Below, one piece after another: positions 5,433 to 48,366 of a stretch of DNA of 64,000 nt. How positions within the stretch are numbered: position 1 is the stretch's first letter; every line of letters begins with the position of its first letter. The stretch lies in NCBI RefSeq assembly GCF_003807585.1, contig NZ_RMBX01000009.1, positions 1 to 64,000 of the forward strand, given 5' to 3'. The notes beneath the pieces were generated by a model. The model ran no database searches, had not been told where the DNA came from, and worked only from the letters and a program-made list of their open reading frames with translations. This DNA is from Chitinophaga barathri. GTDB taxonomy: Bacteria > Bacteroidota > Bacteroidia > Chitinophagales > Chitinophagaceae. The position numbers and the translations under genes were made by a program.

Positions 5433-6794
5433 ATGAAGAATAACTCCATCTTGCAACTCTTAGCCAGCATGTTTCTATTGTTTCTGATAATTGCAGCTTG
5501 CAATAAACAACAAAATACCGCTGAACCTCCCCATCTACAAATTCCAGCTATCCTACAATTATCCGACAGCGCCGATAGTCGGCTTATCACCTTGATAAAG
5601 GAAATTCAAAAAAAACAATATCAAACTGCTTACCTGCTTGGATTGGAGGATAAATATGGAATGCCGCTGTGGGAAAAGGGCCTGATTGGGCAACGCAACA
5701 GCACCACGGTATATACGATCCCCTTAAAACTTTCAGGTGCTTCAAAGATTTCTGGATTTATTGCCTTTGAGTTGGGGGATTCGCTACAGTACCAGCTCTA
5801 TCCGAATGTTGATGTTAATTATTACGGGTACAGCAGAAAAAAAGGCGCTGCAAATGGCGTAAAGGTCAAAAATCTCATGATGGCACTTAATGCGAGGACT
5901 ACGGGAGAAAACAATCCCATAGAACCTCCCCTTGATTGCATTGAACGAAAGTATCTCGAAAATGCCCGGATAGCCGATAATCACGGTAAGGTAACCATTA
6001 ACACAAAAATATTCGTTGTAGAAAGCTGCTATTCATGGTGGGTCTGCATCGCAGACGCTGAAGGAAACTGCATTACTGAAAAGGTGTATCATCAGGACTG
6101 TGTTAGCCAGACATACTGGATCAGCGACGAATGGGAAAGTGGAGGCGTCGGCGGGGAAGGACCAGGAAGCGGAGGTTCCGGCAGTGAAGGCGGTGGCGGA
6201 AATGGAGCGGGAAGCAATCCTGGCGGCGGCGGAAGCGGCCTTCCCGGATCCTGCGACAATGTGCCTCTGCCCGACGAGTTACCGGAGATAGACGATGCTC
6301 AGATGGCTCTCATCCCCTGCAAAAGCTCGTTTAATCTGGTAAGGGACCCAGTAGACACGTGGCAAGCTGCCGTGATCAGCGATTATCGGTTTGGGTTTCA
6401 TAACCCGACTAGAAGCAGTAGTATCTTTGAAGTGAATGTTGGAACAGTTGAAGTAGGGTTACCCAGGCAAACATATGCAGGAGATATCATTCACGCTTCA
6501 GAAGCAGGAGACATTCTAACCGACGCAGCCAAAAGTGCGGAAAGGACCATCAACAGGGCGATAGCATTATATGTTATGGCAAATCCTAACGCCATGCCAC
6601 ATAATTTCAACGATGATACTTTCGTGGCGATGTTCAAAAATGCATGGCAATATGAAATTGACATCAGGCTTCGCAAGAAATATTACCAGAACCAATATGT
6701 ATCTCCATCAAGGGTATCAACCGATGTGAGCTCTTTTACTGTGAAAGATCCCACACTCTGGAGGACCTTAAAGTTTTGGGGCAGGGACTGTTAA
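5433..6794 (+). CDS. lipoprotein of unknown function with glycine-rich linker
   Basis: Probable exported lipoprotein of 453 residues. I chose the internal ATG at 5433 because it starts a clear lipoprotein signal (hydrophobic stretch, then IIAAC, acylated Cys at 22); the frame stays open upstream to an ATG at 5301, but that would bury the signal. Three parts are visible: an N-terminal domain (about 25-235), a low-complexity Gly/Ser/Glu linker (about 237-269) and a C-terminal domain (about 270-453) ending in Cys. I recognise no family. A conserved front, a glycine linker and a separate C-terminal domain recall multi-domain surface or toxin-like proteins, but no catalytic motif supports that. 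Base composition is more A/T rich than its neighbours, which hints at transfer. It is followed after 25 bp by a second exported protein. Confidence 0.75.
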   Translation: MKNNSILQLLASMFLLFLIIAACNKQQNTAEPPHLQIPAILQLSDSADSRLITLIKEIQKKQYQTAYLLGLEDKYGMPLWEKGLIGQRNSTTVYTIPLKLSGASKISGFIAFELGDSLQYQLYPNVDVNYYGYSRKKGAANGVKVKNLMMALNARTTGENNPIEPPLDCIERKYLENARIADNHGKVTINTKIFVVESCYSWWVCIADAEGNCITEKVYHQDCVSQTYWISDEWESGGVGGEGPGSGGSGSEGGGGNGAGSNPGGGGSGLPGSCDNVPLPDELPEIDDAQMALIPCKSSFNLVRDPVDTWQAAVISDYRFGFHNPTRSSSIFEVNVGTVEVGLPRQTYAGDIIHASEAGDILTDAAKSAERTINRAIALYVMANPNAMPHNFNDDTFVAMFKNAWQYEIDIRLRKKYYQNQYVSPSRVSTDVSSFTVKDPTLWRTLKFWGRDC

Positions 6795-7594: not shown

Positions 7595-9955
7595 TCAGAA
7601 ATTCACCGCCACGCTCGCCAGGAAGTTGATTGTCTTCTGGGGAGTACCAGTAGAGATCCAGTATTCTTCGTTCAGCAGGTTGTTCCCTTTCAGGGAGAAG
7701 CGGTATTTAGGCTGATCGTAATACAGGCCTACATTCAGCAGGGTGTATCCGGGTAATACAAATACGTTGCTGCTCTCGAACCAGGAATCGGACACATAGT
7801 TGCCGCCGATGCCGAAACCAAGGCCCCTGGCTTTACCACGGGTCAGGAAATAACTGGCCCAGAAGTTGGCTACATTTTTAGGGCTGGCCATCAATGTTTT
7901 GCCTTCCAGCGCCGGGGTGGCCTTTTTATACGTGTTGTCATTGTATGCATACCCGGCAAAAATGTTCAGGCCGGGAATTGGATTGGCGATCACTTCCGCT
8001 TCAAAGCCACGGCTGAGCTGGGTGCCATCCTGTACGGTGAACTGTTTGCTGTCTATGGTTTCCAGGCGGGTGGAATTTGTCACGTCGATATTGTAGTAGT
8101 TCACCGTTGCGTTCAGCTTTTTGTTGAATGCATCCACTTTGATACCGCCTTCCCACTGGTTGGCATACTGCGGCTTCAGCTCAAGGATGGTGCCATCCGG
8201 CTGTGTAGCGGGGCCGAGGTTCGCAAAACCGTTCATGTAGTTCGCGAAGAGAGACACCTTGTCTTTCACCACCTGGTACACGAGGCCCAATTTGGGCGAC
8301 AGTGCATTCTGTTTGTAACCGCCGGTAAATTTACTGGTGGCGAAGGAGTAAGTACCATCTGTGGTGTAGCGGTCCGCGCGAAGGCTCAGCATCGCCATCA
8401 GGCTGGGCGTGATGTTGAACACATCGGAAATATAAATGCCGTAGTTGTATGCTTTGGTGGAAGTACCGTTGAAACCCGCAGCCGCAGAACGGTCGTCGAT
8501 CTTTTGCGCGCTCATGTCCGGGATATTGCGGCGCAGGTTGATGGTATCGTAGGTGAATACGGCGCGGTACAGTTCGTTGTAGTTATAGTTGTAATCCAGG
8601 CCTATCACTACCCTGTTACGGAAGTTGCCGATCTTAAAATCACCGATAAAATTCTGCTGTACCTGTATGTTGCCAAAGGTCTCGGGTGTCTGGTTGCGCA
8701 TCCCGCGGGCGATGGTGGAGTCCGTCAGGAAGTTGAGGCTGGTCCACAGCAGGGATTTGTAAAAACCTTCGGAATAGAGGAAATTGGTCTCAGACTTCCA
8801 TTGGTCGGACATCTTGTATTCCAGTTTGAACTGCAGGTTGTTGATGCCGTTGGCAATGTCCACCCCGTTGTTGATGAGCGATTGTTTATAAGGCAGCTGG
8901 AGGTCTTTGAAATTACGTGCCGACATCTTTCCCAATGCGGCCGCTGAAATGCCGATGGTGGTAGTGGTGTAATAACCGCGCGTCATTTCCGCGTCCACCG
9001 TCAGTTTGGTGCGGTCGTTGAGCTGGTAGGTGAAAACGGGGGCGATGGTGAAGTTTTTGTTATACCCCTGATCCTGGAAAGAACCTTCCGACTGGAAAGC
9101 GGTATTGAGGCGGAACAGCATGGTCTTCGACTTGTTTACTGGCGTATTGATGTCCGCCGTGATCCTGGCGAACTCGAAGCTGCCGCCGGTAAGGCTTACC
9201 TCGCCGCCAAAGTGGTCATACGGTTTTTTGGTCACGTAGTTGAACACACCGCCGAAAGAAGTATTGCGGTTGCTGCCGAACAGGGTGCCTGAGGGGCCTT
9301 TGATGGCTTCAATCCGTTCCAGGATCACGGGGTTCAGCGGTACGATGGCGCTGGTGGCCATGCCGTTGCGCATACCGATGGTGCCTGAAAAACCACGGAG
9401 GCTGAGGCCCTGGGAGCCACCGGCCGAGAAGTTCGGCACAGCGCCGGCGATATTCCTGTAAATGTCAGTGCGTTCTATGACGAGCTGCTCTTTCATCACA
9501 ACCTGCCCCACGGTATGGTATACCTGCGGGTTTTCGAGGTTCTTGATCGGCAGGCGGGCGATCTGCTCACTTTCCTTGGTTACAAATTTATTGGATACGC
9601 CGCCGGTGATGGTTACTTCTCTCAGCTGGGTGCTGGATACCTGGAGTTCCAGGTTTACGGCGGTGGTCTGGCCTTTCTCCACGGTTACGTCCTGGCGGAG
9701 CGTTTCATATCCTACCAGCGAAACTTCCAGCTGGAATTTCCCTACGGGTACGCGGTTGATATAAAAAGAGCCGTCTTCGCGGGTGATACCGTGTTTGTTC
9801 GCGCCTTTCACCACTACGGTTACGGCTATTGCGGGACTGCCTTCATTCGTCGAGATCATTCCTTTGATCGATCCATACTCCGGCTCATTGGCTGTATTGC
9901 CTGCAAAAGCGGCAAACGGCAGCAGGAGGTATAGGAATTGTATAAGCTTCTTCAT
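7595..9955 (-). CDS. TonB-dependent siderophore receptor
   Basis: Outer-membrane receptor of 786 residues predicted to take up a ferric siderophore. I chose the ATG at 9955 because it begins a standard signal peptide (MKKLIQFLYLLLPFAAFA); seven more residues are open upstream. Next come a carboxypeptidase-regulatory-like domain (about 27-110), a plug with the siderophore-receptor pattern NFSAGGSQGLSLRGF, ERIEAIKGPSGTLFGS and VFNYVTKKP, and a barrel ending FLASVAVNF. It resembles the FhuA/FpvA branch rather than SusC. An enterochelin-esterase-like gene lies 116 bp upstream on the same strand, which fits an iron-uptake pair. Confidence 0.9.
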   Translation of the reverse strand: MKKLIQFLYLLLPFAAFAGNTANEPEYGSIKGMISTNEGSPAIAVTVVVKGANKHGITREDGSFYINRVPVGKFQLEVSLVGYETLRQDVTVEKGQTTAVNLELQVSSTQLREVTITGGVSNKFVTKESEQIARLPIKNLENPQVYHTVGQVVMKEQLVIERTDIYRNIAGAVPNFSAGGSQGLSLRGFSGTIGMRNGMATSAIVPLNPVILERIEAIKGPSGTLFGSNRNTSFGGVFNYVTKKPYDHFGGEVSLTGGSFEFARITADINTPVNKSKTMLFRLNTAFQSEGSFQDQGYNKNFTIAPVFTYQLNDRTKLTVDAEMTRGYYTTTTIGISAAALGKMSARNFKDLQLPYKQSLINNGVDIANGINNLQFKLEYKMSDQWKSETNFLYSEGFYKSLLWTSLNFLTDSTIARGMRNQTPETFGNIQVQQNFIGDFKIGNFRNRVVIGLDYNYNYNELYRAVFTYDTINLRRNIPDMSAQKIDDRSAAAGFNGTSTKAYNYGIYISDVFNITPSLMAMLSLRADRYTTDGTYSFATSKFTGGYKQNALSPKLGLVYQVVKDKVSLFANYMNGFANLGPATQPDGTILELKPQYANQWEGGIKVDAFNKKLNATVNYYNIDVTNSTRLETIDSKQFTVQDGTQLSRGFEAEVIANPIPGLNIFAGYAYNDNTYKKATPALEGKTLMASPKNVANFWASYFLTRGKARGLGFGIGGNYVSDSWFESSNVFVLPGYTLLNVGLYYDQPKYRFSLKGNNLLNEEYWISTGTPQKTINFLASVAVNF

Positions 9956-34133: not shown

Positions 34134-34706
34134 TCAATTACGGATGATTTCCAGTGCTCCATCTTTGCCGATGCGCACAATACGCGAGGGCCTTGCCGGC
34201 GTATGATCCTGCTGGCGGTACTTCACCGTATAATCCACGCCGTGGCGGATGGCATCTTCCACATCACCGAAAACAGCGGGCGATGGCGCTCCGCTCAGGT
34301 TCGCGGAGGTGGACACCAGCGGTTTGCGGAGACGTTTGATCAAATGCCTGCAAAACGTGTCCTGCACAATGCGGATGGCGATGGACCCATCCTGGTTGAT
34401 GACGCTGGGCGCCAGGTGCAGTGCTCCTTCGTAAATGACCGTGGTGGGGCGGTCGAACGATTTGAGCGTGAGTTCGATATCCGGCGGGGGATGCGCGAGA
34501 TAACGCACCAGGTCCCTGGTATCGGCCATGAGGATCACGAGGCTTTTGGCTTCACTGCGTTGCTTGAGGGCGTAGATGCGTTTTACGGCTTCTTCGTCCG
34601 TGGCGTCGCAACCCAGGCCCCAGATGGTATCTGTCGGGTAGAGGATAATGCCGCTCTGGCGCAGTACGGCAAGACTTTTGGTGATATCGTTTTCAAATTC
34701 CGTCAT
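34134..34706 (-). CDS. L-threonylcarbamoyladenylate synthase (Sua5/YciO/YrdC)
   Basis: A 190-residue YrdC-fold protein that makes threonylcarbamoyl-AMP for the t6A37 modification of tRNAs. Landmarks are YPTDTIWGLGCDA, KQRSEAKSLVILM, PTTVIYEG, IAIRIVQD and STSANLSGAP. It is the short, single-domain form without the C-terminal Sua5 domain. Its start codon overlaps the stop of the glycosyltransferase gene (ATGA, 34703-34706), so the two are translationally coupled, although their functions look unrelated. Confidence 0.93.
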   Translation of the reverse strand: MTEFENDITKSLAVLRQSGIILYPTDTIWGLGCDATDEEAVKRIYALKQRSEAKSLVILMADTRDLVRYLAHPPPDIELTLKSFDRPTTVIYEGALHLAPSVINQDGSIAIRIVQDTFCRHLIKRLRKPLVSTSANLSGAPSPAVFGDVEDAIRHGVDYTVKYRQQDHTPARPSRIVRIGKDGALEIIRN

Positions 34707-35833
34707 GCTGTAATGTTTTTATATACATCCATCACCGCGGCCGCGCATTTATCCAGCGTAAACTGCTGCGCGTGAAGGATGCCTTTCTGCCGCATGTCCG
34801 CCCTCAATACCTCGTCTCCCGCTACCTGTTCCATCGCATCCGCAATGGCGGCCGGCCGGAAGGGATCCACATACAGCACGGCGTTCCCGCCTGTTTCCGC
34901 GAAGCAGGAGCCATTTGAAGTGATCACAGGCGTGCGGCTCCAGAGCGCTTCCAGGATGGGGATGCCAAAACCTTCGAACATGGAAGGATATAGCAGCGCC
35001 ACGGCCCCCTGGTAAAGGGCCGGCAGGTCCGCGAAGGCGAATTTATGCGTTTCGTTCAGCCAGACCACCTGCTGCTCCAGGCCTTCTTTGCGGAGATATT
35101 CCTTTATTTCCTTTTTATACCCGCTGCCATCGCCGAGTACTACCAAAGGTATATCCAGCTTGCCTTTCAGGGAGCGCATCGCCTGCGAAATGCCCATCAG
35201 GTTTTTCCTTTCGATTACGGAACCCACGTACAGGAAGTACTGCTGCGGCAGGTTGTAGCGGTTTTTTATGGCATTCACCTCTTCAGCGGTATGTTGTTTT
35301 TCAAAAGAGGGGTCGCAGCCCTGGTAACACACACTGATTCGCTCTTCCGGCACACGGTAAAATTCAATGAGGTCCGCTTTGGTCTGCTCACTGATGGCTA
35401 TTACGCGGCTGGCCTCGCGGCAGGCGTACACGGCTTTGCGGCGGTAGGTGTATACATCAATGGGATTATATTGTTTCGGATAACGCTCAAAAATGAGGTC
35501 GTGCATGGTCACCACGCTTTTTACGCCGCTTTTGTGGATACCGAAGGGCAGTTCCGCGCTGAGGCCGTGATACACGTCGATCTTGTGTTGCCGGAGGTCA
35601 TTCACCACCCAGCGGCTGCGCCATACAGGCTTCAGCCAGCGGTGATGGGGCCTTTGGGGCAGGATGGTCTGCATCCCGCCGGAGGGCCTGAACAGCGGTT
35701 TGGATTTGGGGGCAAAAAGGAAATAATGATGCTGGGGATAGTACTCCGCGAGCGACCTGACGAGCGTGCGGCTGTAGTTCCCCAGGCCTGTGCGGTTCTG
35801 AAAAGCCCGCTTGGCGTCGAAACCGATGTTCAA
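34703..35833 (-). CDS. family GT4 glycosyltransferase
   Basis: A 376-residue retaining GT-B glycosyltransferase. The N-terminal half starts MNIGFDAKRAFQNRTGLGNYSRTL, with the acceptor-side glycine pattern. The C-terminal half carries FLYVGSVIERKN and the nucleotide-sugar motif YPSMFEGFGIPILEALW with the conserved E-x7-E. Such enzymes build surface polysaccharides, and no other polysaccharide gene is adjacent. It is divergent from the graspetide precursor genes (150 bp apart); the opposite strand makes membership of that cluster unlikely, though glycosylation of the peptide cannot be ruled out. Confidence 0.9.
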   Translation of the reverse strand: MNIGFDAKRAFQNRTGLGNYSRTLVRSLAEYYPQHHYFLFAPKSKPLFRPSGGMQTILPQRPHHRWLKPVWRSRWVVNDLRQHKIDVYHGLSAELPFGIHKSGVKSVVTMHDLIFERYPKQYNPIDVYTYRRKAVYACREASRVIAISEQTKADLIEFYRVPEERISVCYQGCDPSFEKQHTAEEVNAIKNRYNLPQQYFLYVGSVIERKNLMGISQAMRSLKGKLDIPLVVLGDGSGYKKEIKEYLRKEGLEQQVVWLNETHKFAFADLPALYQGAVALLYPSMFEGFGIPILEALWSRTPVITSNGSCFAETGGNAVLYVDPFRPAAIADAMEQVAGDEVLRADMRQKGILHAQQFTLDKCAAAVMDVYKNITA

Positions 35834-35983: not shown

Positions 35984-36139
35984 ATGCAACCCGAAGTAAA
36001 CCCTGTAGAAAAGCCATTCTTTGCCCAACTGCTCGAGCAGCAGAAGGCCTCAGAAAAAGACCCTCCCATCTTCACCCTGAAGATATTCGATCATGTGGAG
36101 CATACCACCAAGTATCCTTCGGATGGTGATGAGGTGTAA
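35984..36139 (+). CDS. mdnA: microviridin-type graspetide precursor peptide 1
   Basis: A 51-residue peptide gene below the usual ORF length cut-off. It has the two marks of a microviridin precursor. The first is the leader helix motif KPFFAQLLEQQ (10-20), matching the PFFARFL motif that ATP-grasp ligases bind. The second is a C-terminal core TTKYPSDGDEV (41-51) matching T-x-KYPSD-x-(D/E)-E. By analogy with microviridins, ester bonds would link Thr41-Asp47 and Ser46-Asp49, and an amide would link Lys43-Glu50. The core ends the peptide with a single Val. Products of the family inhibit serine proteases. The position-5 residue that sets protease preference is Thr42 here. A weak TGTCCG / CGGACA inverted repeat (35906-35942) lies upstream. 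Confidence 0.93.
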   Translation: MQPEVNPVEKPFFAQLLEQQKASEKDPPIFTLKIFDHVEHTTKYPSDGDEV

Positions 36140-36179
36140 CCATATTTCTTCCATTTAAACCATTTAAACACGAACAGGT

Positions 36180-36362
36180 ATGAAGCCCAATGAACAGGTA
36201 TTAAAGCCGTTTTTTGCACAATTCCTGGAATCCCAGCAAAAAAACGCGCTTCCAAAACAACACCAGGCAACTGAAAATAACTGGACCAGCAAGCTGTCCG
36301 ATGTTCCCGATCAGACGCATAAATATCCCTCTGACGGGGATGAGGAATGGTGGCTGTTATAA
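36180..36362 (+). CDS. mdnA: microviridin-type graspetide precursor peptide 2
   Basis: A 60-residue paralogue of the preceding peptide gene, 40 bp downstream. It has the leader motif LKPFFAQFLESQQ (8-20), a longer Gln/Asn-rich spacer and a core THKYPSDGDE (46-55), followed by a hydrophobic extension EWWLL (56-60). The expected cross-links are Thr46-Asp52 and Ser51-Asp54 (esters) and Lys48-Glu55 (amide). The position-5 residue is His47, unlike Thr in peptide 1, so the two products may inhibit different proteases. A longer ORF in another frame crosses this gene; that overlap is the unused upstream part of the first ligase frame. A hairpin terminator follows 26 bp later. Confidence 0.93.
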   Translation: MKPNEQVLKPFFAQFLESQQKNALPKQHQATENNWTSKLSDVPDQTHKYPSDGDEEWWLL

Positions 36363-36388
36363 AGTCCACCCGCATTCATTCATCATTG

Positions 36389-36419
36389 CAAGCAATGGCT
36401 CCGGCCGTTGCTTGTTTTT
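36389..36419 (+). terminator. attenuator/terminator between graspetide precursors and ligases
   Basis: An 11-bp stem CAAGCAATGGC / GCCGTTGCTTG with one G-U pair, a 4-nt TCCG loop and TTTTTATTT directly after. It lies between the second precursor and the first ligase, all on one strand. Partial read-through would give abundant precursor mRNA and less ligase mRNA, an arrangement known from other RiPP operons. Confidence 0.85.
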
Positions 36420-36432
36420 ATTTGCCAGCTTC

Positions 36433-37398
36433 ATGATTCTTTGCATCACGCATTCGCAGGACACCTACACGATAGACCTTGTACAACAACGCCTGCAACA
36501 GTTAGGATACTCCGCTTTCCGTTTTAATTCAGATGAATTCGGCACCCGCTTCCGACTCCGTTACCGCCTCACGCCCGAGGGGCCTCAATACCAGCTGCAA
36601 TGCGGCAACCAGGTGATAGACGCACGGGACATACAGGGCGTATGGTACCGAAAGCTCTGGGCCCTCCAGGTGCCGCCCTCGCTGGATCCCGCTTATGTTC
36701 CCGCATTCCTGAAAGAATACCAGACCTCTCTCAACATATTCCTCGACGCGCTGGACGTGCCCTGGATCAACCGGCTGGACCTGGATCATGCCGTGGGCGG
36801 CAACAAACTGCTGCAGCTCTCTGCCGCGCAGGCCACGGGCCTTCACGTACCGCAAACCCTTTTCAGCAACCATGCGGAAGATGCCATCCGGTTTTATGAT
36901 GACCACCAGGGCGAAGTAGTGGTAAAACTACATGGCGCCCTTTCCAAGACCATGGACGGCCGCGGCGACTTTTTCCCCACCACGCGCCTCCGTAAAGAAG
37001 ACGTGCCCATGCTGGAATCCCTCTCCGCCTGCCCCATGATATTGCAGGAATACATTCCAAAAGACCGCGAGCTTCGCATCGTGTACATCGATGGCGACTT
37101 CTATACTGGCAGCCTGCATGCGCCCGAGCTTACGGACTGGCGCGCCGGCAACACCACGCTTATACAATGGGAAGCGTTTGAGCTGCCCACCCACATTGAA
37201 GAAAAAATAGACGAGATGATGCGCCTGCTGGGCCTGCAATTCGGCGCCATCGACATGATCCTGCAGCCTGATGGCGAATACGTATTCCTCGAAGTGAACC
37301 CACAGGGCGAATGGGGCATGCTTGAAAAATACCTTGGTTTCCCCATCGCCGCTACCATAGCGGAAAAACTCGTTAACCGCATTACCAGCGAATCATGA
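36433..37398 (+). CDS. mdnB: graspetide ATP-grasp ligase, MdnB/MvdC-like
   Basis: A 321-residue peptide-maturing ligase. The frame is open back to 36214, but that would overlap precursor 2 and the terminator; ATG 36433 begins a normal ILCITHSQDTYTID strand and gives the family length. Landmarks are GVWYRKLW (about residue 68-75), the ATP-binding VVVKLHGALSKTMDG, PMILQEYIPKDRELRIVYIDG, FGAIDMILQPDGEYVFLEVNPQGEWGMLE (metal-binding E287, N289). The C-terminal NPxGEWGMLE pattern resembles MdnB, the enzyme that forms the Lys-Glu amide in microviridins. The split between MdnB and MdnC is from recalled family sequences. It overlaps the next gene by 4 bp. Confidence 0.9.
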   Translation: MILCITHSQDTYTIDLVQQRLQQLGYSAFRFNSDEFGTRFRLRYRLTPEGPQYQLQCGNQVIDARDIQGVWYRKLWALQVPPSLDPAYVPAFLKEYQTSLNIFLDALDVPWINRLDLDHAVGGNKLLQLSAAQATGLHVPQTLFSNHAEDAIRFYDDHQGEVVVKLHGALSKTMDGRGDFFPTTRLRKEDVPMLESLSACPMILQEYIPKDRELRIVYIDGDFYTGSLHAPELTDWRAGNTTLIQWEAFELPTHIEEKIDEMMRLLGLQFGAIDMILQPDGEYVFLEVNPQGEWGMLEKYLGFPIAATIAEKLVNRITSES

Positions 37399-38384
37399 AT
37401 AAAATCCTGATCATCACCCATACGGCGGACAATGAGTCCGTTACTTCCGTGATGCAACATATCAAAGCCCTGGGCGGGGAAAGCATCCGGTTCGATGTGG
37501 ACCGGTATCCCGTGGGCGCGCAGCTTACCACCCAATATTCCGCCGGCCGCTGGCAGCTATGGCTTGAAGATGAGCATGGCAGCCATTCCCTGGATGATAT
37601 ATCGGCCGTATGGTACCGCAGGAGCTACAACATCGGGAAAGGCCTTGAAAAGGTGCTGGACAAAGAATTTCTCTCCTCTTCCATAGGTGAGGTGCGGCGC
37701 ACCCTGTTCGGTATGCTGGAAGGCCTGCCCTGCTTTCAGCTGGAACGTTACAGCGTATACCGCCGGCTGGACAGTAAGGAAGAACAGCTGCGGATAGCCG
37801 CGGATTGCGGGCTGGAGATACCCGCCACCTGCATCACCAATTCCCCCGAAAAACTGAAAGCCTTTATGGAAGCCACCGGTAAGCCCATCGTCGCAAAAAT
37901 GCAGAGCGCTTTCGCCATTTACCGCGAAGGGCGTGAACATGTGGTGTTTACCAGTGAAATAAACGACAGTCACCTGGAACAACTGCAACAGCTGGCCTAC
38001 TGCCCCATGACCTTCCAGGAAAAACTGCCCAAAGCCCTGGAGCTGCGCGTGACGGTCGTGGGAAGGGAGCTATTCACCTTTTCCATAGACAGCCAGCAGC
38101 TGCCCGAAGCCCAGACGGACTGGCGGAAGGAAGGAGCCGCACTGGTGGAGGACTGGAAGCCTTATACCCTGCCGGAAAACATCAGCAGCGGTATTTTGAA
38201 GATAATGGACCTGTTTGGACTCAATTATGGCGCCATAGACCTGATACTGACGCCGGAGGGGAAATATTATTTCCTGGAACTGAACGCGGCCGGCGAATTC
38301 TTCTGGCTGGACAAGCTTTGCGGTTATTCCATTTCCCGGCACCTGGCAGCCGTATTGCTGGGCCAGGCAGAAAGAAGAGAATAA
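37395..38384 (+). CDS. mdnC: graspetide ATP-grasp ligase, MdnC/MvdD-like
   Basis: A 329-residue ATP-grasp ligase whose start overlaps the stop of the mdnB-like gene (ATGA). It begins NKILIITHTADNESV and carries SAVWYRRS, IVAKMQSAFAIY (ATP lysine region), CPMTFQEKLPKALELRVTVVG, QTDWRKEGAALVEDWKPYTLP and FGLNYGAIDLILTPEGKYYFLELNAAGEFFWLDKL (E295, N297). This closely follows the MdnC pattern, the enzyme that forms the two ester bonds and acts first in microviridin maturation. The leader-binding hairpin region should contact the PFFAQ motif of both precursors. It is the last gene of the cluster: dapD follows with its own promoter. Confidence 0.92.
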   Translation: MNKILIITHTADNESVTSVMQHIKALGGESIRFDVDRYPVGAQLTTQYSAGRWQLWLEDEHGSHSLDDISAVWYRRSYNIGKGLEKVLDKEFLSSSIGEVRRTLFGMLEGLPCFQLERYSVYRRLDSKEEQLRIAADCGLEIPATCITNSPEKLKAFMEATGKPIVAKMQSAFAIYREGREHVVFTSEINDSHLEQLQQLAYCPMTFQEKLPKALELRVTVVGRELFTFSIDSQQLPEAQTDWRKEGAALVEDWKPYTLPENISSGILKIMDLFGLNYGAIDLILTPEGKYYFLELNAAGEFFWLDKLCGYSISRHLAAVLLGQAERRE

Positions 38385-38438: not shown

Positions 38439-39251
38439 ATGGACGTACAGCAACAAATACTGGCTGCGTGGAATGACCGCAGCCTGTTACAGCAAACACA
38501 GTATTCCGATGCCGTGAGAGCAGTGATAGAAGCAGTGGATAAAGGAAAGCTCCGTGTGGCGGAACCCGGTGAGAACGGATGGAAGGTAAACGAATGGGTA
38601 AAACAGGCGATCCTGATGTATTTCTCGATACAGCCGATGGAGACGATGGAACTGCCTCCCTTTGAGTTCCATGACAAGATGAAGCTCAAAACCAACTATA
38701 AGGAGCTGGGTGTACGCGTAGTGCCCCATGCGGTGGCCCGTTATGGTGCATTTATCGCCAAAGGCGCTATCCTGATGCCTTCTTATGTAAATATCGGTGC
38801 ATATGTGGACGAAGGCACGATGGTGGATACCTGGGCAACCGTAGGTTCCTGCGCGCAGATCGGCAAACACGTGCACCTGAGCGGCGGCGTGGGCATCGGC
38901 GGCGTACTGGAGCCCCTGCAGGCCAGCCCGGTGATCATTGAAGACGGTGTGTTTGTAGGCTCACGTTGCATTGTAGTGGAAGGCGTACATGTGGAAAAAG
39001 AAGCGGTGCTGGGCGCCAACGTGGTGCTCACCCAATCCACCAAGATCATTGATGTAAGCGGCCCTGAGCCGGTAGAATACAAAGGCCGTGTACCAGCGCG
39101 CAGCGTGGTGATACCCGGTACTTATGCAAAAAAATTCCCCGCGGGCGAATACCAGGTGTCCTGCGCGCTGATCATCGGTCAGCGTAAAGCCAGCACAGAC
39201 CTGAAAACGAGCCTGAACGACACGCTTCGTGAGTTCAACATCGCGGTGTAA
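38439..39251 (+). CDS. dapD: 2,3,4,5-tetrahydropyridine-2,6-dicarboxylate N-succinyltransferase
   Basis: Cytoplasmic enzyme of the succinylase branch of diaminopimelate/lysine biosynthesis; it transfers succinyl from succinyl-CoA. From ATG 38439 (MDVQQQILAAWNDRSLLQ) it has 270 residues, the normal length. The middle is a left-handed beta-helix of hexapeptide repeats (GAFIAKGAILMPSYVNIGAYVDEGTMVDTWATVGSCAQIG), and VRVVPHAVARYGAFI and VIPGTYAKKFPAGEY are DapD landmarks. A terminator follows. The gene has no functional link to the upstream graspetide genes. Confidence 0.96.
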   Translation: MDVQQQILAAWNDRSLLQQTQYSDAVRAVIEAVDKGKLRVAEPGENGWKVNEWVKQAILMYFSIQPMETMELPPFEFHDKMKLKTNYKELGVRVVPHAVARYGAFIAKGAILMPSYVNIGAYVDEGTMVDTWATVGSCAQIGKHVHLSGGVGIGGVLEPLQASPVIIEDGVFVGSRCIVVEGVHVEKEAVLGANVVLTQSTKIIDVSGPEPVEYKGRVPARSVVIPGTYAKKFPAGEYQVSCALIIGQRKASTDLKTSLNDTLREFNIAV

Positions 39252-39398: not shown

Positions 39399-39482
39399 GC
39401 CCAGATGGCGAAATTGGTAGACGCACTGTGTTCAGGTCGCAGCGTCCGCAAGGATGTGCTGGTTCGAATCCAGTTCTGGGCA
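39399..39482 (+). tRNA. tRNA-Leu (anticodon CAG)
   Basis: An 84-nt class II tRNA. The acceptor stem is GCCCAGA / TCTGGGC with discriminator A. The anticodon stem CTGTG / CGCAG holds loop TTCAGGT, so the anticodon is CAG. There is a long variable arm (CGTCCGCAAGGATG), and the T arm is CTGGTTCGAATCCAG. Only CC of the CCA end is encoded (39483-39484), so the last A must be added. It has a strong promoter upstream and a hairpin terminator downstream, and its 3' part is echoed at 41840-41915. Confidence 0.96.
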
Positions 39483-39488
39483 CCTGAG

Positions 39489-41987: not shown

Positions 41988-42965
41988 TCAGAATGCGCTG
42001 ATCTCTGCGAAAAAAGTAATGTTGGTGTTGCCGTGTGTAGCCGTTACTGTTACCTTAAAGTATCTCCCGGAGAACTGCTGGGTAAAAAATACGGGCTGAC
42101 GGGGATTGATAGCCTGAAGCTGGTATGTACCGGCGTTCTGCCAGGTAGTGCCGTCCGCGCTTACTTCCACCGTCGCCGTTTTAGGAGCACCGTTGGGCGC
42201 ATTCTGGCGGGCGGTAAGGTAGAGGCCGGAAAGCGTGTTGGTAGCATGCATATCGACGGCGATATGATGAGGCAGCGGCGGCTCTCCCCCATCCCACTGG
42301 GTATGCCAGAAGGTATTCAGCAGGCCGTCCAGCGCAAAGATAGCACGGCCGTTGTTCGGGCCTTCGCCGCTCGCTTCTTCAGAATCCACATCAAATATGG
42401 TCCAGGCACTGCGGTTGATCTCGGGATATACAGGCGGCGTCACTTTCACCACGAAGTAGGTAATGGCTTGCCCGGATGTGACCGTAAAATCTTCGGCTGA
42501 CGTCAGCCTTACCGGGATCATATAGTTGTGCCCTTCTTCGATCAGTTTGGCATTGATGGTGAATGCAATATTGTCGCTGATCACGTTTCCTTTTTTGATC
42601 ACTGTACCGCCTTTGGCGAATTCGAAGATATTGTCAGGGATGCGCTCGAAAGCGGGCAGCCCTGCGTTCGTGCGGGAGGTATTGATGGAATCCCATTTGG
42701 AATAATCCACGTCAAAGCTCACATTGATGTCCCGGGGTGCGCTGGCGAAACCCGAGCCCGCGAAAAACGCGTTGAGATCGAAGGCGTAAGCCGTATCCGA
42801 CTGCAGCGGCGCCCTGCGGTTTACGGTAATGTCCGTAAAAGCGCCATTGATGGCCTGCGACATGTAGATGCGTACATCGCCGTCGTTTTCTGAGAACGCG
42901 CTTTCTTTTTTGCAGCCTGCGGCGCCGATGCCGGCTAACAACGTATAGAGAAGTATTTTTTTCAT
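41988..42965 (-). CDS. DUF1735 and discoidin-domain surface lipoprotein
   Basis: A 325-residue lipoprotein (MKKILLYTLLAGIGAAGC, acylated Cys18). The N-terminal part (about 25-165) resembles the DUF1735/BT_3987-like domain (INVSFDVDYSKWDSIN...NAGLPAFERIPDNIFEF), and a C-terminal F5/8 type C (discoidin) carbohydrate-binding-like domain (about 185-325) contains ALDGLLNTFWHTQW and ISAF at the end. It is encoded 33 bp after SusD and probably forms part of the same surface glycan-binding complex. Confidence 0.87.
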   Translation of the reverse strand: MKKILLYTLLAGIGAAGCKKESAFSENDGDVRIYMSQAINGAFTDITVNRRAPLQSDTAYAFDLNAFFAGSGFASAPRDINVSFDVDYSKWDSINTSRTNAGLPAFERIPDNIFEFAKGGTVIKKGNVISDNIAFTINAKLIEEGHNYMIPVRLTSAEDFTVTSGQAITYFVVKVTPPVYPEINRSAWTIFDVDSEEASGEGPNNGRAIFALDGLLNTFWHTQWDGGEPPLPHHIAVDMHATNTLSGLYLTARQNAPNGAPKTATVEVSADGTTWQNAGTYQLQAINPRQPVFFTQQFSGRYFKVTVTATHGNTNITFFAEISAF

Positions 42966-42998: not shown

Positions 42999-44678
42999 TT
43001 ACCAGTTCGGATTCTGCGGCAGCAGCGCAGGGTTCAGCGTCAGTTCGTTGGTAGGCAACGGGTACAGGTACAGCTTGTCGTTCCAGGTACGGGAAGTAAT
43101 ATTATTGTAAACGCGGATATAGAAGTTGCCGTCCACGATCACGTTGCTCACCTGGTTGGCAGGGTATTGCGCGCGCAGTGCGGGCGTGAGTTTCATGCCC
43201 AGGATCGTTTCCGCGTTGTTGATGAGCGTGCCGGCTTTCCAGCGCAACAGATCGTCGAAACGGAAACCGTCTCCCACCAGTTCGATCCTCCTTTCCCTCC
43301 TGATCTCATCCAGCAGTACGGGAATGCCGGGGAACTTGGACTGCGGGTCCCTCACCAGCGCAGCAATCACCATAGGCGCCATGTTCACGCGGGAACGGAT
43401 CTCGTTGATGGTCCTGTCTATCACGGCCTGGCTTCCTTCACCCAGCTCGGCTTTCGCTTCGGCGAATATGAGCAGCGTTTCGGCGTAACGGAAAATGAAG
43501 AGGTCGAGGGTGGACTGGTTCGCATTCCACTGTGCGGGATCCGGGCTATAGTTCTTTGCAGCTGCGTAACCCGTTACCACGCCGGGGATACGTGGCAGGC
43601 TCACCACATCGTTGTTGCCGCCCGGGTTGGCGGTCACTACAAAACCGCGTGTCGCGATGATCTGTGTAAACCGCGGATCGCGGTCTATCAGCTCATTGTC
43701 CAGCGTTTCGTCGCCCCGGTACAGGGGGCTCAGTGCCGTAGGCACGCCGTTCTTATCCAGGAAGGACCGCACGAAATCCTTAGTGAGCGCGGGCCATATG
43801 TCGGATATCTGGCGGGTTAGGTTGTGCATGCTGATGTCCTTAATGTATCGGCGCGCGAGGATGGCTTCAGGATTGCCCCTCAGCTCTTCCTGGATGAACA
43901 GGTTGTAATAATCCTTCGTGGGGTTGCCGGTTTTCCAGATGCTATACCGGCCGGTGTTCATCACTGCTTCCGCGGCGTCAGCGGCGGCGCGCAGGTAAGG
44001 TGTTTCATCGCCCATTGCCTGGTATTTCCGGAAAGTGCCTTCCCAGAGGCATATCCTGGCTTTCAGTGCATTGGCCACGTCTTTGGTGATCCTGCCCCTG
44101 AACTGGGTGTTGCTGCCTTCCGCCGCGTTGGCCACGGCATAGTTGAGGTCCGCCAGCACGGAGTCCATCACCTGCTTGTGCGGCTGGCGCGGACCGTAAA
44201 GGATAGCGGAGGAAGTGTCCGTCAGGTCCCGGGACAGCCAGGGCACTGCGCCGTACCGTTTTACTTTATCCCAGTAGAACATCGCGCGGAAAAAACGCGC
44301 TTCGGCCACGTAATAGTTCTTCACGGTACCGTCCATCTGCGCACGGTCGTAGCGCTGCAGGAAATAATTCACATTGCGGATATTCGCCCAGGCGGCGTAG
44401 TTCCAGTTGTTGTCCGTGGCTGGCACTACGTATTCGCCTGCCAGGAACACGTCGCGGGAGCTCTGTGCGAAGTTGTCTGAGTTCGCTTCGCTGTTACCGC
44501 GCTGTACAGGTAATGCGTCGTAAAACTGGTTGAGATACAGTTTCAGGTCATTCTCATTTTTGAAGAACGTGGGCTCGCTGATGGCGTCCTGCGGGAACCT
44601 GTCCAGGAAGTCTTCCCTTTTACAGGCGGTCAGCAGCAGGAAAAGCGTGCATATATATAAAGTGTGTTTCCTTGTCAT
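42999..44678 (-). CDS. SusD/RagB-family surface glycan-binding lipoprotein
   Basis: A 559-residue lipoprotein that forms the lid of the SusC barrel and captures the oligosaccharide. ATG 44678 gives the lipoprotein signal MTRKHTLYICTLFLLLTAC (Cys19). Family landmarks are REDFLDRFPQDAISEPTFFKNENDL, ARFFRAMFYWDKVKRYGAVPWL, FRYAETLLIFAEAKAEL and the C-terminal RERRIELVGDGFRFDDLLRWKAG and LYPLPTNELTLNPALLPQNPNW. It lies 22 bp after susC. The glycan is not evident, because no glycoside hydrolase adjoins the locus. Confidence 0.95.
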   Translation of the reverse strand: MTRKHTLYICTLFLLLTACKREDFLDRFPQDAISEPTFFKNENDLKLYLNQFYDALPVQRGNSEANSDNFAQSSRDVFLAGEYVVPATDNNWNYAAWANIRNVNYFLQRYDRAQMDGTVKNYYVAEARFFRAMFYWDKVKRYGAVPWLSRDLTDTSSAILYGPRQPHKQVMDSVLADLNYAVANAAEGSNTQFRGRITKDVANALKARICLWEGTFRKYQAMGDETPYLRAAADAAEAVMNTGRYSIWKTGNPTKDYYNLFIQEELRGNPEAILARRYIKDISMHNLTRQISDIWPALTKDFVRSFLDKNGVPTALSPLYRGDETLDNELIDRDPRFTQIIATRGFVVTANPGGNNDVVSLPRIPGVVTGYAAAKNYSPDPAQWNANQSTLDLFIFRYAETLLIFAEAKAELGEGSQAVIDRTINEIRSRVNMAPMVIAALVRDPQSKFPGIPVLLDEIRRERRIELVGDGFRFDDLLRWKAGTLINNAETILGMKLTPALRAQYPANQVSNVIVDGNFYIRVYNNITSRTWNDKLYLYPLPTNELTLNPALLPQNPNW

Positions 44679-44700
44679 GATATCAATTTTTAAATCAGCA

Positions 44701-47700
44701 TTACAAACCAACCTGTAGACCAAATGACCAGCTGCGGCTCAGTGGGTACGTCTGAACACCGAGCAGCTCGGGATCGAAGGCCTTGTGCAGATCGGTGATC
44801 TCAAACAGGTTCTGGCCGGTGACATATACTCTCACACGGTTGATCTTAGCCCTGGAAAGCAGGGACTGCGGAAGCGTATAACCGATGGTAGCTTGTTTAA
44901 GGCGTGCATAGGCAGCGTTCTGCAGGTATTTGGTCTGCGTTTGCTGGTTATACGATGCCGCGATTTTGTTCACGGGGTAATAAGCGTCCCTGTTTTCGGG
45001 CGTCCAGGTGTCCAGGTGGTATTTCAGGGGAACGTCCCATTCGCTGGTAAAGCCCCAGAAATAAGTACCGCCGAGCATGTAATCGCGTTTGCCGGTACCC
45101 TGGAAGAACACGGTAGCGTCGAAGCCTTTGTAATCCGCGCCCAGGTTAAGGCCGAAAAGGTAACGCGGCGTGCTGTTGCCGATCACGCGCTGGTCGCCGG
45201 GATTGTAGATGCTGTTGTCTCCCACGGAAATGATGCCATCTCCGTTCAGGTCCGTGTACCGGATGTCCCCGGGCAGCCATGCACCGCCATAGAGATTTTT
45301 CTGGGAAGCGGATTTGGCCACTTCATCCGCAGATTGATAAAAACCCGCGGTGGTGTAACCCCAGATATCGCCGAGGGTAAGCCCTTCATAATACGTGTTG
45401 ATCAGCCCTTTGGGATTCAGTTCGTAGCGGGTCACCTCGGTGGTGGCATCTGATAGGTTTAGCGCTACGTTGTAGCTGAAGCCACTGCCGATCTGATCCC
45501 TCCAGGTCAGGTTCAGTTCCCAGCCTTTGGTGCGGATGTCCGCAGAGTTGGCCGTGGGCGGCGTTGCACCAAGGATGGCGGGGCGCGCGGCGCCGGACTG
45601 GATAATGTCTTTCACCGTCCTTACATAATAATCAAACACGAGGCCCAGCCTGTTCTTCAGGAAAGATGCGTCCACACCCACGTCGATGGTGCTTACTTTT
45701 TCCCAGGTAAAGTCCGGCGATACGAGGCCCGCAGCGCCTACGTACGGGCTGGTGAGATTATCGTCAAACACATATCCTGTCTGCCCGATCGGCATCGTGG
45801 CGATGTAAGGATAAGGCAGGTCGGTGGCCTGGTTGCCGAGTGTGCCGTAAGAGCCCCTGAGCTTCAGGTCGTTCACCACTTTGGAAATGCCGGCGAAGAA
45901 TCGTTCCTGTGAAATACGCCAGCCGGCTGATACGGACGGCGCAAACAGGTAACGGTTGCCTCTCTGGAAGCGGGAAGTTCCGTCGTAGCGGCCGTTCACT
46001 TCCAGCAGGTATTTATCCGCGTAAATGTAATTGAGCCGGAAGAATGAACCGCTCACCGCCCATTCATTCTGTGCAGCGCCGAGGAGCGGGCTCTTGTCGT
46101 TGTTCGGCACGAGGCTTGGCAGGGTCGGGTCCACCAGGTTGCGGGCGGTTACGTTGAAGCTCCTGTTCTGCTTCAGCTCCTCGTTGTAACCGATCATGGC
46201 TTTTACGTAATGTTTGCCGCCGAAGGTGTTTTCGTACTGGAGGTAAGAGTTCAGCGCGTAATAATAATCGCTTTCGTTTGCCTGGTACAGGCGGCTGGGG
46301 GTGGTCCAGGGATAGGTGCCCAGCAACGCACCGTCCACGCCGTATTCGTTGAATGCTTTATAGTGCTGGCTGGTGTTCCTGAAATACCCGTTCCAGGTAT
46401 AATCCGTTACCCAGCGTACATTCTTTAAGGGTTTCAGCACAAATCCGCCGGTGAGCCAGACGTCGTTGATATCGTATTGATAACGGCCGTTCTGTTTCAT
46501 TACCGCGATCATGTTAGTGTAATTGCCCTGCCCGGAGAAGTTGCCATCCGGGTGATACACGGGCATCAGGGGGGTTAAGTCCGTAGGGATGAAAGACCAG
46601 TTTGCAATGTCATCGTTCACGAACTGCGTGCCGTTGGGCGTGTTCAGCGTCGTGCGGTTCAGGCTGGCTTTGAAGTTCAGGTCCAGCCAGTCCGTGGTTT
46701 TATTGGTGAGGCGGAGGCTCGCATTATAACGTTTGTATTGCTGATCGGCTTCTTTCAGCAGGCCGTCCTGGCTGAGGATGCCCATGCTGGCGGCATAGGT
46801 GGTTTTACCTTCGCCGCCGGAGAGAGAAATGTTGTGCTGCTGCTGTGGCTGCCGTCCGGGGTAGAGCACGTCTATCCAGTCCGTGTTGCCTACGTAGCGG
46901 TAGCGGTTGGGGCGGTCCGGGTCCACGTATACGTCTGAATTGTTAGCTGGGTCTGCGGCGTATTTTGTGGCCAGGATGGAGTCCTGGTCTGTATAGTTGT
47001 AGCTGTTACCACCTGCCCTGCGCGCAGCGTCGCGGAACATATTGATGTACTGCGAGCCGTTCAGGTATTCGGGCAATCGCGTGGGGCGTGAAATGGTATA
47101 GTTGCCGGAGTAGCTGATGTTGATCTTACCGGACTTCCCGCTTTTGGTGGTGATGAGCAACACGCCGTAAGCCGCGCGGCCGCCGTAGATGGCTGCGGAG
47201 GCGGCGTCTTTCAGCATGGTTACGCTTTCCACGTCATCAGGGTTGATCAGGTTCGGATCCATCACCACACCGTCCACCAATACGAGCGGAGAAGCGGCCC
47301 CGGTGGTACCCAGCGGGTTGTCGCCCCTGATGTTAAAGGAAGCGCCCTGGCCGGGAGCGCCGTTGCTCATATTCACGCGCAGGCCGGGCATGGTGCCTTG
47401 CAGGCCTTGCGCCAGGTTCACCAGGGGGCGGCTTTCGAGGGTTTTGGCGTTTACGGTGGATACGGCGCCGGTGAGGTTCGCGGCTTTCTGGGTACCGTAA
47501 CCAACCACCACCACTTCGTTCAGCGCGGTATTCCCTTCTTCCAGCACGATGTTCATAGCCGCGGAAGTAACACGCTTTTCTATAGCTACATATCCCACGA
47601 ATTTAAACATCAACGTAGCCGTGTCGCTTTTTACGGTGAGGGAAAATGAACCGTCTTCTTTGGTGATAGTGCCGTTGGAGGTGCCTCTTTCCCAAACACT

Positions 47701-48156
47701 CACACCAATAAGGGGTTGCTGCTGGTTGTCGGTCACCTTGCCGTGGGCCACAACAGCCCGCACCGCATTGGGCTTGTCCCCGGCGGGGGCGATCACCACG
47801 AGGTTTCCGGCGATCGTTTTATAATCCAGTTTGGTGTCTTTTAGTACCTGCCGCAGCGTTTCCGTCCAGGTTTTGTCTTTCACTTCGATGTCTACCGGCG
47901 CAAGGTCCTGCAGCATTTCGTCGTTGTACACAAAATGAACGGGGATCTGCTTCTCGATGGCTTTTAATACTTTCCGGAGCGAAGCCTGTTTCATGTTCAG
48001 CGTCACCTTTTCCTGCGCATAGCCGGATAGCGCAAAGGATTGTATGGAGCACATACAAACGATAATGGCGGTCAATTTCATCATGAACAATAGCTTGATA
48101 ATTGGCGCGACAGGACGACCGGGGCGCGTACCCGGACCCAATCTGATTTTTTTCAT
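44701..48156 (-). CDS. SusC/RagA-family TonB-dependent receptor with STN domain
   Basis: Outer-membrane glycan importer of 1151 residues from ATG 48156; 12 further codons upstream are open. A basic N-terminal stretch and the signal (ending SGYAQ) precede an STN domain (about 49-123), which lets such receptors signal to a FecR protein. After it come a carboxypeptidase-regulatory-like domain (about 135-215, GKVTDNQQQPLIGVSV), the SusC plug (VVVGYGTQKAANLTGAVS, SFNIRGDNPLG, LVLVDGVVMDPNLINPDDVESVTMLKDAASAAIYGGRAAYGVLLITTK) and a barrel ending WSFGLQVGL. Genes for the sigma factor and FecR lie upstream on the same strand, as usual for cell-surface signalling. Confidence 0.96.
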   Translation of the reverse strand: MKKIRLGPGTRPGRPVAPIIKLLFMMKLTAIIVCMCSIQSFALSGYAQEKVTLNMKQASLRKVLKAIEKQIPVHFVYNDEMLQDLAPVDIEVKDKTWTETLRQVLKDTKLDYKTIAGNLVVIAPAGDKPNAVRAVVAHGKVTDNQQQPLIGVSVWERGTSNGTITKEDGSFSLTVKSDTATLMFKFVGYVAIEKRVTSAAMNIVLEEGNTALNEVVVVGYGTQKAANLTGAVSTVNAKTLESRPLVNLAQGLQGTMPGLRVNMSNGAPGQGASFNIRGDNPLGTTGAASPLVLVDGVVMDPNLINPDDVESVTMLKDAASAAIYGGRAAYGVLLITTKSGKSGKINISYSGNYTISRPTRLPEYLNGSQYINMFRDAARRAGGNSYNYTDQDSILATKYAADPANNSDVYVDPDRPNRYRYVGNTDWIDVLYPGRQPQQQHNISLSGGEGKTTYAASMGILSQDGLLKEADQQYKRYNASLRLTNKTTDWLDLNFKASLNRTTLNTPNGTQFVNDDIANWSFIPTDLTPLMPVYHPDGNFSGQGNYTNMIAVMKQNGRYQYDINDVWLTGGFVLKPLKNVRWVTDYTWNGYFRNTSQHYKAFNEYGVDGALLGTYPWTTPSRLYQANESDYYYALNSYLQYENTFGGKHYVKAMIGYNEELKQNRSFNVTARNLVDPTLPSLVPNNDKSPLLGAAQNEWAVSGSFFRLNYIYADKYLLEVNGRYDGTSRFQRGNRYLFAPSVSAGWRISQERFFAGISKVVNDLKLRGSYGTLGNQATDLPYPYIATMPIGQTGYVFDDNLTSPYVGAAGLVSPDFTWEKVSTIDVGVDASFLKNRLGLVFDYYVRTVKDIIQSGAARPAILGATPPTANSADIRTKGWELNLTWRDQIGSGFSYNVALNLSDATTEVTRYELNPKGLINTYYEGLTLGDIWGYTTAGFYQSADEVAKSASQKNLYGGAWLPGDIRYTDLNGDGIISVGDNSIYNPGDQRVIGNSTPRYLFGLNLGADYKGFDATVFFQGTGKRDYMLGGTYFWGFTSEWDVPLKYHLDTWTPENRDAYYPVNKIAASYNQQTQTKYLQNAAYARLKQATIGYTLPQSLLSRAKINRVRVYVTGQNLFEITDLHKAFDPELLGVQTYPLSRSWSFGLQVGL

Positions 48157-48366
48157 ACTTTTGATGTTAGGTTTTGAAAAATAGGCTTCCACCTTCTCTG
48201 ATGAACCGGAGAAGCCTTACATTGCCTGAGAACGGAGAATGTCGCAAGCATTCTCCTTCTCTTTTTGATTTCAGTTGATTGTGATTGTTTTTATACCATA
48301 TTCAATACATTAACGTGAAAGATTTTGACGCGAGATTTTTGTGAACATTGTTAGCGAAAATTAATA

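Follow-up and report, generated by a model that had tools for sequence, protein, structure and literature searches.

The first 64,000 nucleotides of contig NZ_RMBX01000009.1 of Chitinophaga barathri (the window) contain a cluster of 2.4 kb in which two short precursor genes, P1 and P2, are followed by two genes for ATP-grasp ligases, ligase 1 and ligase 2, all on the plus strand. Judged by sequence, the cluster belongs to the chryseoviridin-type (Bacteroidota) branch of graspetides rather than to the plain tricyclic microviridins. The best explanation of its content, which we consider probable, is that each peptide would receive three esters between Thr/Ser and Asp residues from ligase 2 and one Lys-Glu amide from ligase 1. 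An initial annotation had described a compact microviridin-type cluster with tricyclic products; the cluster is indeed compact and of the graspetide type, within the microviridin superfamily, but its branch is the chryseoviridin one, and an extra Thr-x4-Asp unit raises the predicted loss to as many as four waters. The features of the cluster are as follows.

35984..36139, plus strand: P1 precursor, 51 residues, single core, no double-glycine (GG) motif (NF033738; relatives in genomes G295 and G315)
36014..36043, plus strand: P1 leader motif PFFAQLLEQQ, containing LExQ, putative ligase-docking helix (from sequence)
36074..36091, plus strand: P1 extra unit T31-LKIF-D36, predicted single omega-ester ring (motif census, positions)
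36104..36133, plus strand: P1 microviridin-like cage TTKYPSDGDE (T41, K43, S46, D47, D49, E50; from sequence)
36180..36362, plus strand: P2 precursor, 60 residues, single core, no GG motif (NF033738; C-terminus near-invariant in 16 Chitinophaga genomes)
36207..36236, plus strand: P2 leader motif PFFAQFLESQ (from sequence)
36285..36302, plus strand: P2 extra unit T36-SKLS-D41, predicted single omega-ester ring (selection, motif census, positions)
36315..36344, plus strand: P2 cage THKYPSDGDE (T46, K48, S51, D52, D54, E55; from sequence)
36345..36359, plus strand: P2 invariant C-terminal tail EWWLL (ratio of nonsynonymous to synonymous differences, pN/pS, 0.011 in 16 sequences)
36388..36419, plus strand: terminator-like hairpin, 12 pairs in 36388-36415 and a T run in 36415-36419, -20.3 kcal/mol, putative attenuator
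36433..37398, plus strand: ligase 1, MvdC/MdnB-type ATP-grasp, predicted to form the omega-amide (Lys-Glu) ring (TIGR04185; AMdnB 7m4s)
37395..38384, plus strand: ligase 2, MvdD/MdnC/CdnC-type ATP-grasp, predicted to form the omega-ester rings (TIGR04184; CdnC 7mgv)

The two short peptides with PFFAQ-L leaders and T-x-KYPSDGDE cores were recovered at exactly the coordinates first assigned to them, and both exceed the curated cut-off (26 bits) of the microviridin/marinostatin model NF033738, P1 with 35.3 bits and P2 with 51.5 bits. Against PF12559 (Inhibitor_I10, cut-off 21 bits), P2 scores 31.2 bits and P1 18.5 bits. Both peptides combine the core pattern TxKxPSDx[DE][DE] with a PFFAxFL-like leader, and the GG leader-cleavage motif of chryseoviridin-type and class III precursors is absent from both sequences. 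Searches of the PDB with P1 or P2 alone returned nothing useful. The precursor genes stand directly before the coupled ligase genes, as had been noted, and the latter overlap by four bases (ATGA). The host was rightly called Chitinophaga-like, as its named relatives bear out; the nearest of these by ligase 2 is C. chungangae (88% identical). No second copy of the cluster was found in the 28 contigs (6.86 Mb) of the genome.

That the precursors are spurious small open reading frames (ORFs) beside unrelated ATP-grasp genes can be given practically no credence. Chance short ORFs are common, 143 of at least 30 residues being present around the locus, but this idea is countered by the family scores, by a gene order that is conserved in 21/21 genus genomes with a precursor match, and by the codon selection described below. 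The latter also runs counter to one of the refuting conditions named in the initial annotation, namely precursor frames without codon or conservation signal in related genomes.

The best models for the ligases are TIGR04185 (MvdC) for ligase 1, with 357.7 bits against an equivalog cut-off of 425, and TIGR04184 (MvdD) for ligase 2, with 432.7 bits against a cut-off of 475; both ligases pass PF21068, the MvdD pre-ATP-grasp Pfam model. Neither enzyme falls outside the graspetide ATP-grasp families. The resemblance to MdnB and MdnC claimed at first holds for the best-matching families, but not to the level of equivalogs, and ligase 2 is nearer to CdnC than to MdnC. Among solved structures, it matches CdnC (7mgv) with 383 bits and then 5ig9 with 279 bits, an entry that itself reads ATP grasp ligase and that we take to be MdnC. 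CdnC is reported to have a dual function, with both single and bicyclic esters as products, as the title of a JACS 2021 paper has it. The nearest solved relative of ligase 1 is AMdnB (7m4s, 230 bits). Ligase 2 of a Chryseobacterium locus (L065) also has CdnC as its best match, with 609 bits, a match that, with the tree below, assigns the cluster to the chryseoviridin branch.

In a tree of 89 ligases, the Chitinophagaceae and Chryseobacterium sequences form a 31-row clade with 100/100 support for each paralogue, distinct from the cyanobacterial ligases and from those of four more Bacteroidota loci (L070, L072, L075, and L076). The clusters situated beside a glycosyltransferase gene, as in C. 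barathri, form one 17-row clade for each ligase. Omitted from the tree were eight loci duplicating whole-genome loci (L059-L064, L066, and L067), ligase pieces interrupted by a stop codon, and matches not exceeding 250 residues. The ligase 2 match is split in two loci, L097 (G328; 8672-9472 and 9460-9654) and L101 (G353; 5735-6535 and 5550-5741), by sequencing error or decay.

For chryseoviridins, the motif TxxxxDxxxTxKxPSDxD[DE] has been published, with three linkages counted in it, and Chryseobacterium precursors are described as having residues with the potential for one to three more (Makarova et al. 2022, PMC8939145, in the portion available). Both precursors of C. barathri have a Thr-x4-Asp upstream of the cage, TLKIFD in P1 and TSKLSD in P2. 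To place this unit in a wider context, a census was taken of the distinct precursor sequences from 35 Bacteroidota and 8 cyanobacterial loci, considering only the last cage in multi-core precursors and omitting two cage-less precursors of C. pendula. The pattern [TS]x4[DE], located 3-6 residues before the last cage Thr, is found in 47 of the 56 Bacteroidota precursors (7.3 expected from shuffles), and in one of the 10 cyanobacterial precursors, which is the chance level (1.7 expected). When the gap between donor and acceptor is varied from 1 to 8, the Bacteroidota counts peak at gap 4 (47/56), with 26 at gap 3 and 19 at gap 7, while the cyanobacterial peak lies at gap 5 (7/10), which is the Thr-Asp distance inside tandem cages. 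The donor is exchanged between T and S and the acceptor between D and E at unchanged spacing (for example, SLPIIE and TLPVFD). Moreover, the distribution of the unit follows the ligase tree, with 47 carriers among the 50 precursors of the CdnC-like clade and none among the six Bacteroidota precursors outside it.

The C. pendula operon (G324, L086:8593-8907) bears on the same question. Two of its seven precursor genes encode a PFFAQLLE leader and the sequence TWPWID, without a KYPSD cage, and one near relative of one of these was found in the protein collection. Such precursors give the impression that the single-ring unit can serve as a core by itself. The Thr-x4-Asp unit would constitute a separate ester ring, and its presence before the TxKYPSDGDE cage leads to a prediction of four rings instead of three, a fourth ring beyond those of microviridin being likely on the sequence evidence.

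In the pathway that we propose, the leader PFFAQ(L/F)LExQ would dock in the ligases, by analogy with microviridin. Ligase 2 would close the separate ring (T36-D41 in P2, T31-D36 in P1) and the two esters of the cage (T46-D52 and S51-D54 in P2, T41-D47 and S46-D49 in P1), after which ligase 1 would join K48 to E55 in P2 and K43 to E50 in P1. The count of four presupposes that ligase 1 resembles its microviridin relatives in forming the amide between Lys and Glu.

Several points weigh against this reading. The exact published motif is unmatched, because P1 and P2 have four residues, not three, from the unit Asp to the cage Thr. Both ligases score under their equivalog cut-offs, and several long branches were flagged by the tree tool. 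The 56 precursors of the census are related, 15 of them being P2 orthologues, so that the census overstates independence; about three of the 47 matches look fortuitous, and the unit is missing from three of the 50 precursors in the clade. A Ser stands beside the unit Thr in P2, and thus rings from T36 and from S37 are indistinguishable by sequence, an ambiguity also apparent in the 26/56 matches at gap 3. The bonds and the product are predictions, and with three linkages counted by Makarova et al., the Lys-Glu amide is added here on the strength of ligase 1 and of the retained Lys and Glu.

Two simpler ring systems may be set against the proposed one. Only the TxKYPSDGDE cage may be cross-linked, with two esters and one amide as in a plain microviridin, the Thr-x4-Asp stretch being a spacer or the site of the leader peptidase. 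NF033738 spans the leader and the cage, the stretch lies immediately upstream of the cage, and since P1 and P2 lack GG, some other element must mark the point of cleavage. Against this stand the four-residue Thr-Asp gap maintained through T/S and D/E exchanges, the co-distribution of the unit with the CdnC-like ligase clade, its occurrence in precursors without a cage, and an ester ligase that is nearest to CdnC; we regard this alternative as quite improbable. It is also unlikely that the peptides have three rings consisting of the extra ester and both esters of the cage, the Lys-Glu amide being absent. This would agree with the title of the CdnC paper, which names only single and bicyclic esters, and with the three linkages that the available portion of Makarova et al. 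(PMC8939145) counts in the motif. On the other hand, the MvdC/MdnB-like ligase 1 is kept next to ligase 2 in 21/21 genus genomes, and the cage Lys and Glu are invariant in the 16 P2 sequences.

Selection on P2 was estimated from 16 of the 17 genomes with a glycosyltransferase-side cluster, G353 having given no P2 sequence. Over the leader, pN/pS is 0.085; it rises to 0.69 in the linker and falls to 0.044 over the last 26 codons, where it amounts to 0.049 in WTSKLxD, 0.046 in the cage, and 0.011 in the EWWLL tail; pS is about 0.7, which is near saturation. The unit is as constrained as the cage, and the tail more so. Therefore, the functional P2 product probably spans all 26 C-terminal residues. 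Variation in the core is confined to three positions: an A/S site, an A/V site, and the site following the cage Thr, where Q, H, or L occurs and which we take to be the position of protease specificity in microviridins. The C-terminal half of P2 is almost unchanged in about one-fifth of the sampled species of the genus, and this near-invariance suggests that P2 probably has a fixed physiological target. In contrast to the nearly invariant P2, cyanobacterial microviridin cores are varied. P1-type genes are present in three of the 17 genomes with a glycosyltransferase-side locus (C. barathri, G295, and G315), and the pN/pS of the P1 core is 0.118 in these three sequences.

The gap between P2 and ligase 1 has a folding z of -3.8 as a whole, and the hairpin within it recurs. 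A hairpin of -12 kcal/mol or lower with a T-rich tail was found in 28 of 30 clade loci, compared with 12 of 580 shuffled gaps (20 shuffles per locus, with a fallback to plain shuffling possible). The locus of G353 (L101), with a leader that is not intact and a ligase 2 match in two pieces, contributed no precursor and lies outside these counts. The hairpin is also present in Chryseobacterium (L065, L081, and L085), the stem sequences differing between the genera. Pairing is kept in 95.2% of the cells in the 21 alignable loci of the 28, and 12 cells are changed on both sides of the stem, which none of 500 shuffles reaches. The features of an intra-operon attenuator, that is, a hairpin with a T-rich tail, a conserved place, and kept pairing, are thus found together, with a mixed outcome of the pairing control. 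The hairpin would probably stop many transcripts after the precursor genes, resulting in more peptide than enzyme, and it may in this way set the peptide:enzyme ratio.

Some results count against an attenuator. The covariation rests on only three pairs, a number reached by 147 of 500 shuffles, and the number of further pair types falls below that in shuffles (8 vs 10.6). Two of the 30 loci (L094 and L086) have no hairpin. A scan of 4.9 kb for terminators gave no excess over shuffles (7 sites vs 5.3 expected), although one of the sites is the conserved hairpin. A role of the hairpin as a blocker of the ribosome site or a stabiliser of the mRNA 3' end, instead of a terminator, is somewhat unlikely. 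In 26 of the 28 loci, a spacer of 12-26 bases separates the end of the 3' arm from the ligase 1 start codon, so that the hairpin could mask translation; against this, the tail is T-rich in 28/28 loci (the search required T-rich sequence downstream), including those of Chryseobacterium with an unrelated stem, and a terminator occupies the equivalent place, between mccA and mccB, in the microcin C operon (PMC6495379, in excerpt). In that operon, as here, a hairpin terminator separates a very short precursor gene from a modifying-enzyme gene; the peptide chemistry is unrelated, and there ribosome binding at mccA is reported, in the same excerpt, to induce termination.

In L094 (7323-7327; G300, C. 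cymbidii), the P2-ligase 1 gap is reduced to three bases and the hairpin is gone, a natural loss. Outside the clade, four of 10 loci (L070, L075, L077, and L078) have a hairpin of -13 kcal/mol or lower and six have none. Precursors with two to four cages are encoded at L069, L074, L077, and L078 (cyanobacterial and deltaproteobacterial), of which L077 and L078 have strong hairpins and L069 and L074 none. A scan for sigma-70 promoters found three, with no excess over shuffles (4.5). Among the matches listed in a literature search, which covered titles and the starts of abstracts, no title was on point for a terminator in operons of microviridins or other ribosomally synthesised and post-translationally modified peptides; given this coverage, no priority is claimed for the hairpin.

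No exporter, peptidase, or acetyltransferase was recognised by Pfam among the neighbours in 26.5-48.2 kb of the window, four of which had no Pfam match. When ORFs of at least 90 residues from 12 loci were clustered, the ligase pair was all that the nine ligase loci had in common. With no GG site in the precursors and no protease or exporter recognised nearby, leader removal and export would depend on proteins encoded elsewhere. Class I microviridin clusters usually lack a leader-peptidase gene, and in Nostoc the M1 peptidase NosP cuts after LEEQ and acts in trans, according to the portion of PMC13039773 at hand. A NosP-like M1 peptidase cutting after LExQ is accordingly a candidate; the genome encodes eight M1 peptidases, none of which can be resolved to a NosP equivalent. 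LExQ was rejected as a discriminating NosP-type site, since 63 of the 66 precursors, those bearing GG among them, have it after their PFF motif. The genome also has a single C39 peptidase-ABC transporter away from the cluster, which was not assigned as the exporter because neither precursor carries a GG site.

By extension from their family, the mature peptides would inhibit serine proteases. That they are instead modified but intracellular or regulatory, and not secreted inhibitors, appears rather unlikely. The lack of a recognised exporter or protease among the neighbours, with the four that have no Pfam match, would fit this alternative, as would the pN/pS of 0.044 in the P2 C-terminus, which suits a housekeeping ligand more than a weapon. 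However, the absence of a peptidase gene is usual for class I clusters (PMC13039773, same portion), and the C39 transporter and the eight M1 peptidases are available elsewhere in the genome. A bolder version of the preferred tetracyclic reading is offered tentatively, as we would sooner doubt than accept it in full. It holds that P2 yields one nearly invariant tetracyclic graspetide (WTSKLxDxPDQTxKYPSDGDEEWWLL) with one tuned specificity residue behind the cage Thr, directed at one conserved protease, from a precursor without GG and at a dose set by the attenuator hairpin found repeatedly across the Bacteroidota branch, and that the Thr-x4-Asp is an autonomous module which CdnC-like ligases also close alone, as in C. 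pendula.

NF033738 matches occur in 21 of 79 genomes of the genus and in nine of 294 sampled genomes of the family, the C. barathri genome being counted. The cluster lies next to the glycosyltransferase gene in 17 of these 21 genus genomes, with dapD directly after it in eight of the 17; the other four loci are elsewhere in the genome and more divergent. Ligase 1 is beside ligase 2 in all 21, and the gene order is conserved. In C. barathri, the insertion site is marked by two genes outside the pathway.

34703..35833, minus strand: group 1 glycosyltransferase, left flank, divergent from the cluster (PF00534)
38439..39251, plus strand: dapD, right flank (NF008808, 361.8 bits)

The dapD gene was found in 79/79 genus genomes, and 30 dapD loci were fetched, 15 of them from the 58 genomes without a precursor match. 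In these 15 cluster-less genomes (L120-L134), the glycosyltransferase gene and dapD are without exception direct, divergent neighbours, within about 170 bases of each other in 14 and about 640 bases apart in one. From this empty site, the cluster looks like a single insertion between the two genes, and some members of the clade would subsequently have lost its direct contact with dapD. Multi-core precursor genes of the microviridin type, with no ligase gene in the 20 kb fetched, were observed at L037 (G001:C27:521534), L034 (G101:C10:268316), and L039 (G225:C6:152606); their products may be modified in trans by the main-locus ligases of the same genome.

Comparison with known Bacteroidota graspetides, which the initial annotation had advised, yielded family relatives, and placed the cluster with the chryseoviridins and not with plain microviridins. 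As in the chryseoviridin pathway of Chryseobacterium gregarium (CdnA/CdnB/CdnC), two ATP-grasp ligases follow the precursors, the ester ligase is nearest to CdnC, and a Thr-x4-Asp precedes the TxKxPSD cage (VTSKLTDMDRTLKYPSDGDDD in C. contaminans and WTSKLSDVPDQTHKYPSDGDEE here); a hairpin before ligase 1 is likewise common to the Chryseobacterium loci. Unlike that pathway, the C. barathri precursors have a single short core and no GG, four residues instead of three between Asp and Thr, and the EWWLL tail in P2. With the cyanobacterial microviridins (MdnA/MdnB/MdnC, equivalent to MvdE/MvdC/MvdD), the cluster shares the PFFAxFL leader, the TxKYPSDx[DE][DE] cage, and the position of the lactam-type before the lactone-type ligase gene, seen in six of eight cyanobacterial loci (those in which both were found). 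It differs from them in the separate ligase clade, in the extra unit, and in that no acetyltransferase or transporter was recognised nearby.

The chitinoviridins A1 and A2A of Chitinophaga japonensis DSM 13484 are class III microviridins, a class described in the accessible part of PMC13039773 as having a longer core of which only the C-terminus is clearly microviridin-like, and double-glycine motifs. They come from the same genus and can be set beside P1 and P2 by description only. A long core with a microviridin-like C-terminus is found in P2 as well, judged from the selection over its 26 residues, while the double-glycine motifs of class III are present in neither P1 nor P2.

Relatives of P2 are already listed under microviridin/marinostatin-family names at NCBI, and these names, together with the 1590 ligase homologues retrieved at E ≤ 1e-60 and the reported chitinoviridins, indicate that this kind of system, including its presence in Chitinophaga, is already known; the general interest is accordingly modest. 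Four features are of particular interest: the predicted fourth ring, the near-invariance of the P2 core, the putative attenuator, and the precursors that hold the unit without a cage. With a precursor of 60 residues and two ligases, this is a very small conserved system in which to ask if one ester ligase closes a free-standing ring as well as a cage. The recurring hairpin, if its proposed role is true, would amount to a simple rule for the balance of substrate and enzyme in graspetide operons.

Farther downstream in the window, a tRNA-Leu (cag) gene, the sole Rfam match, lies at 39399-39484 after dapD. A SusC/SusD-like outer-membrane pair is encoded on the minus strand at 42999-48192, about 4-5 kb from the cluster, with a protein containing an F5/8 type C domain beside it at 41988-42965.

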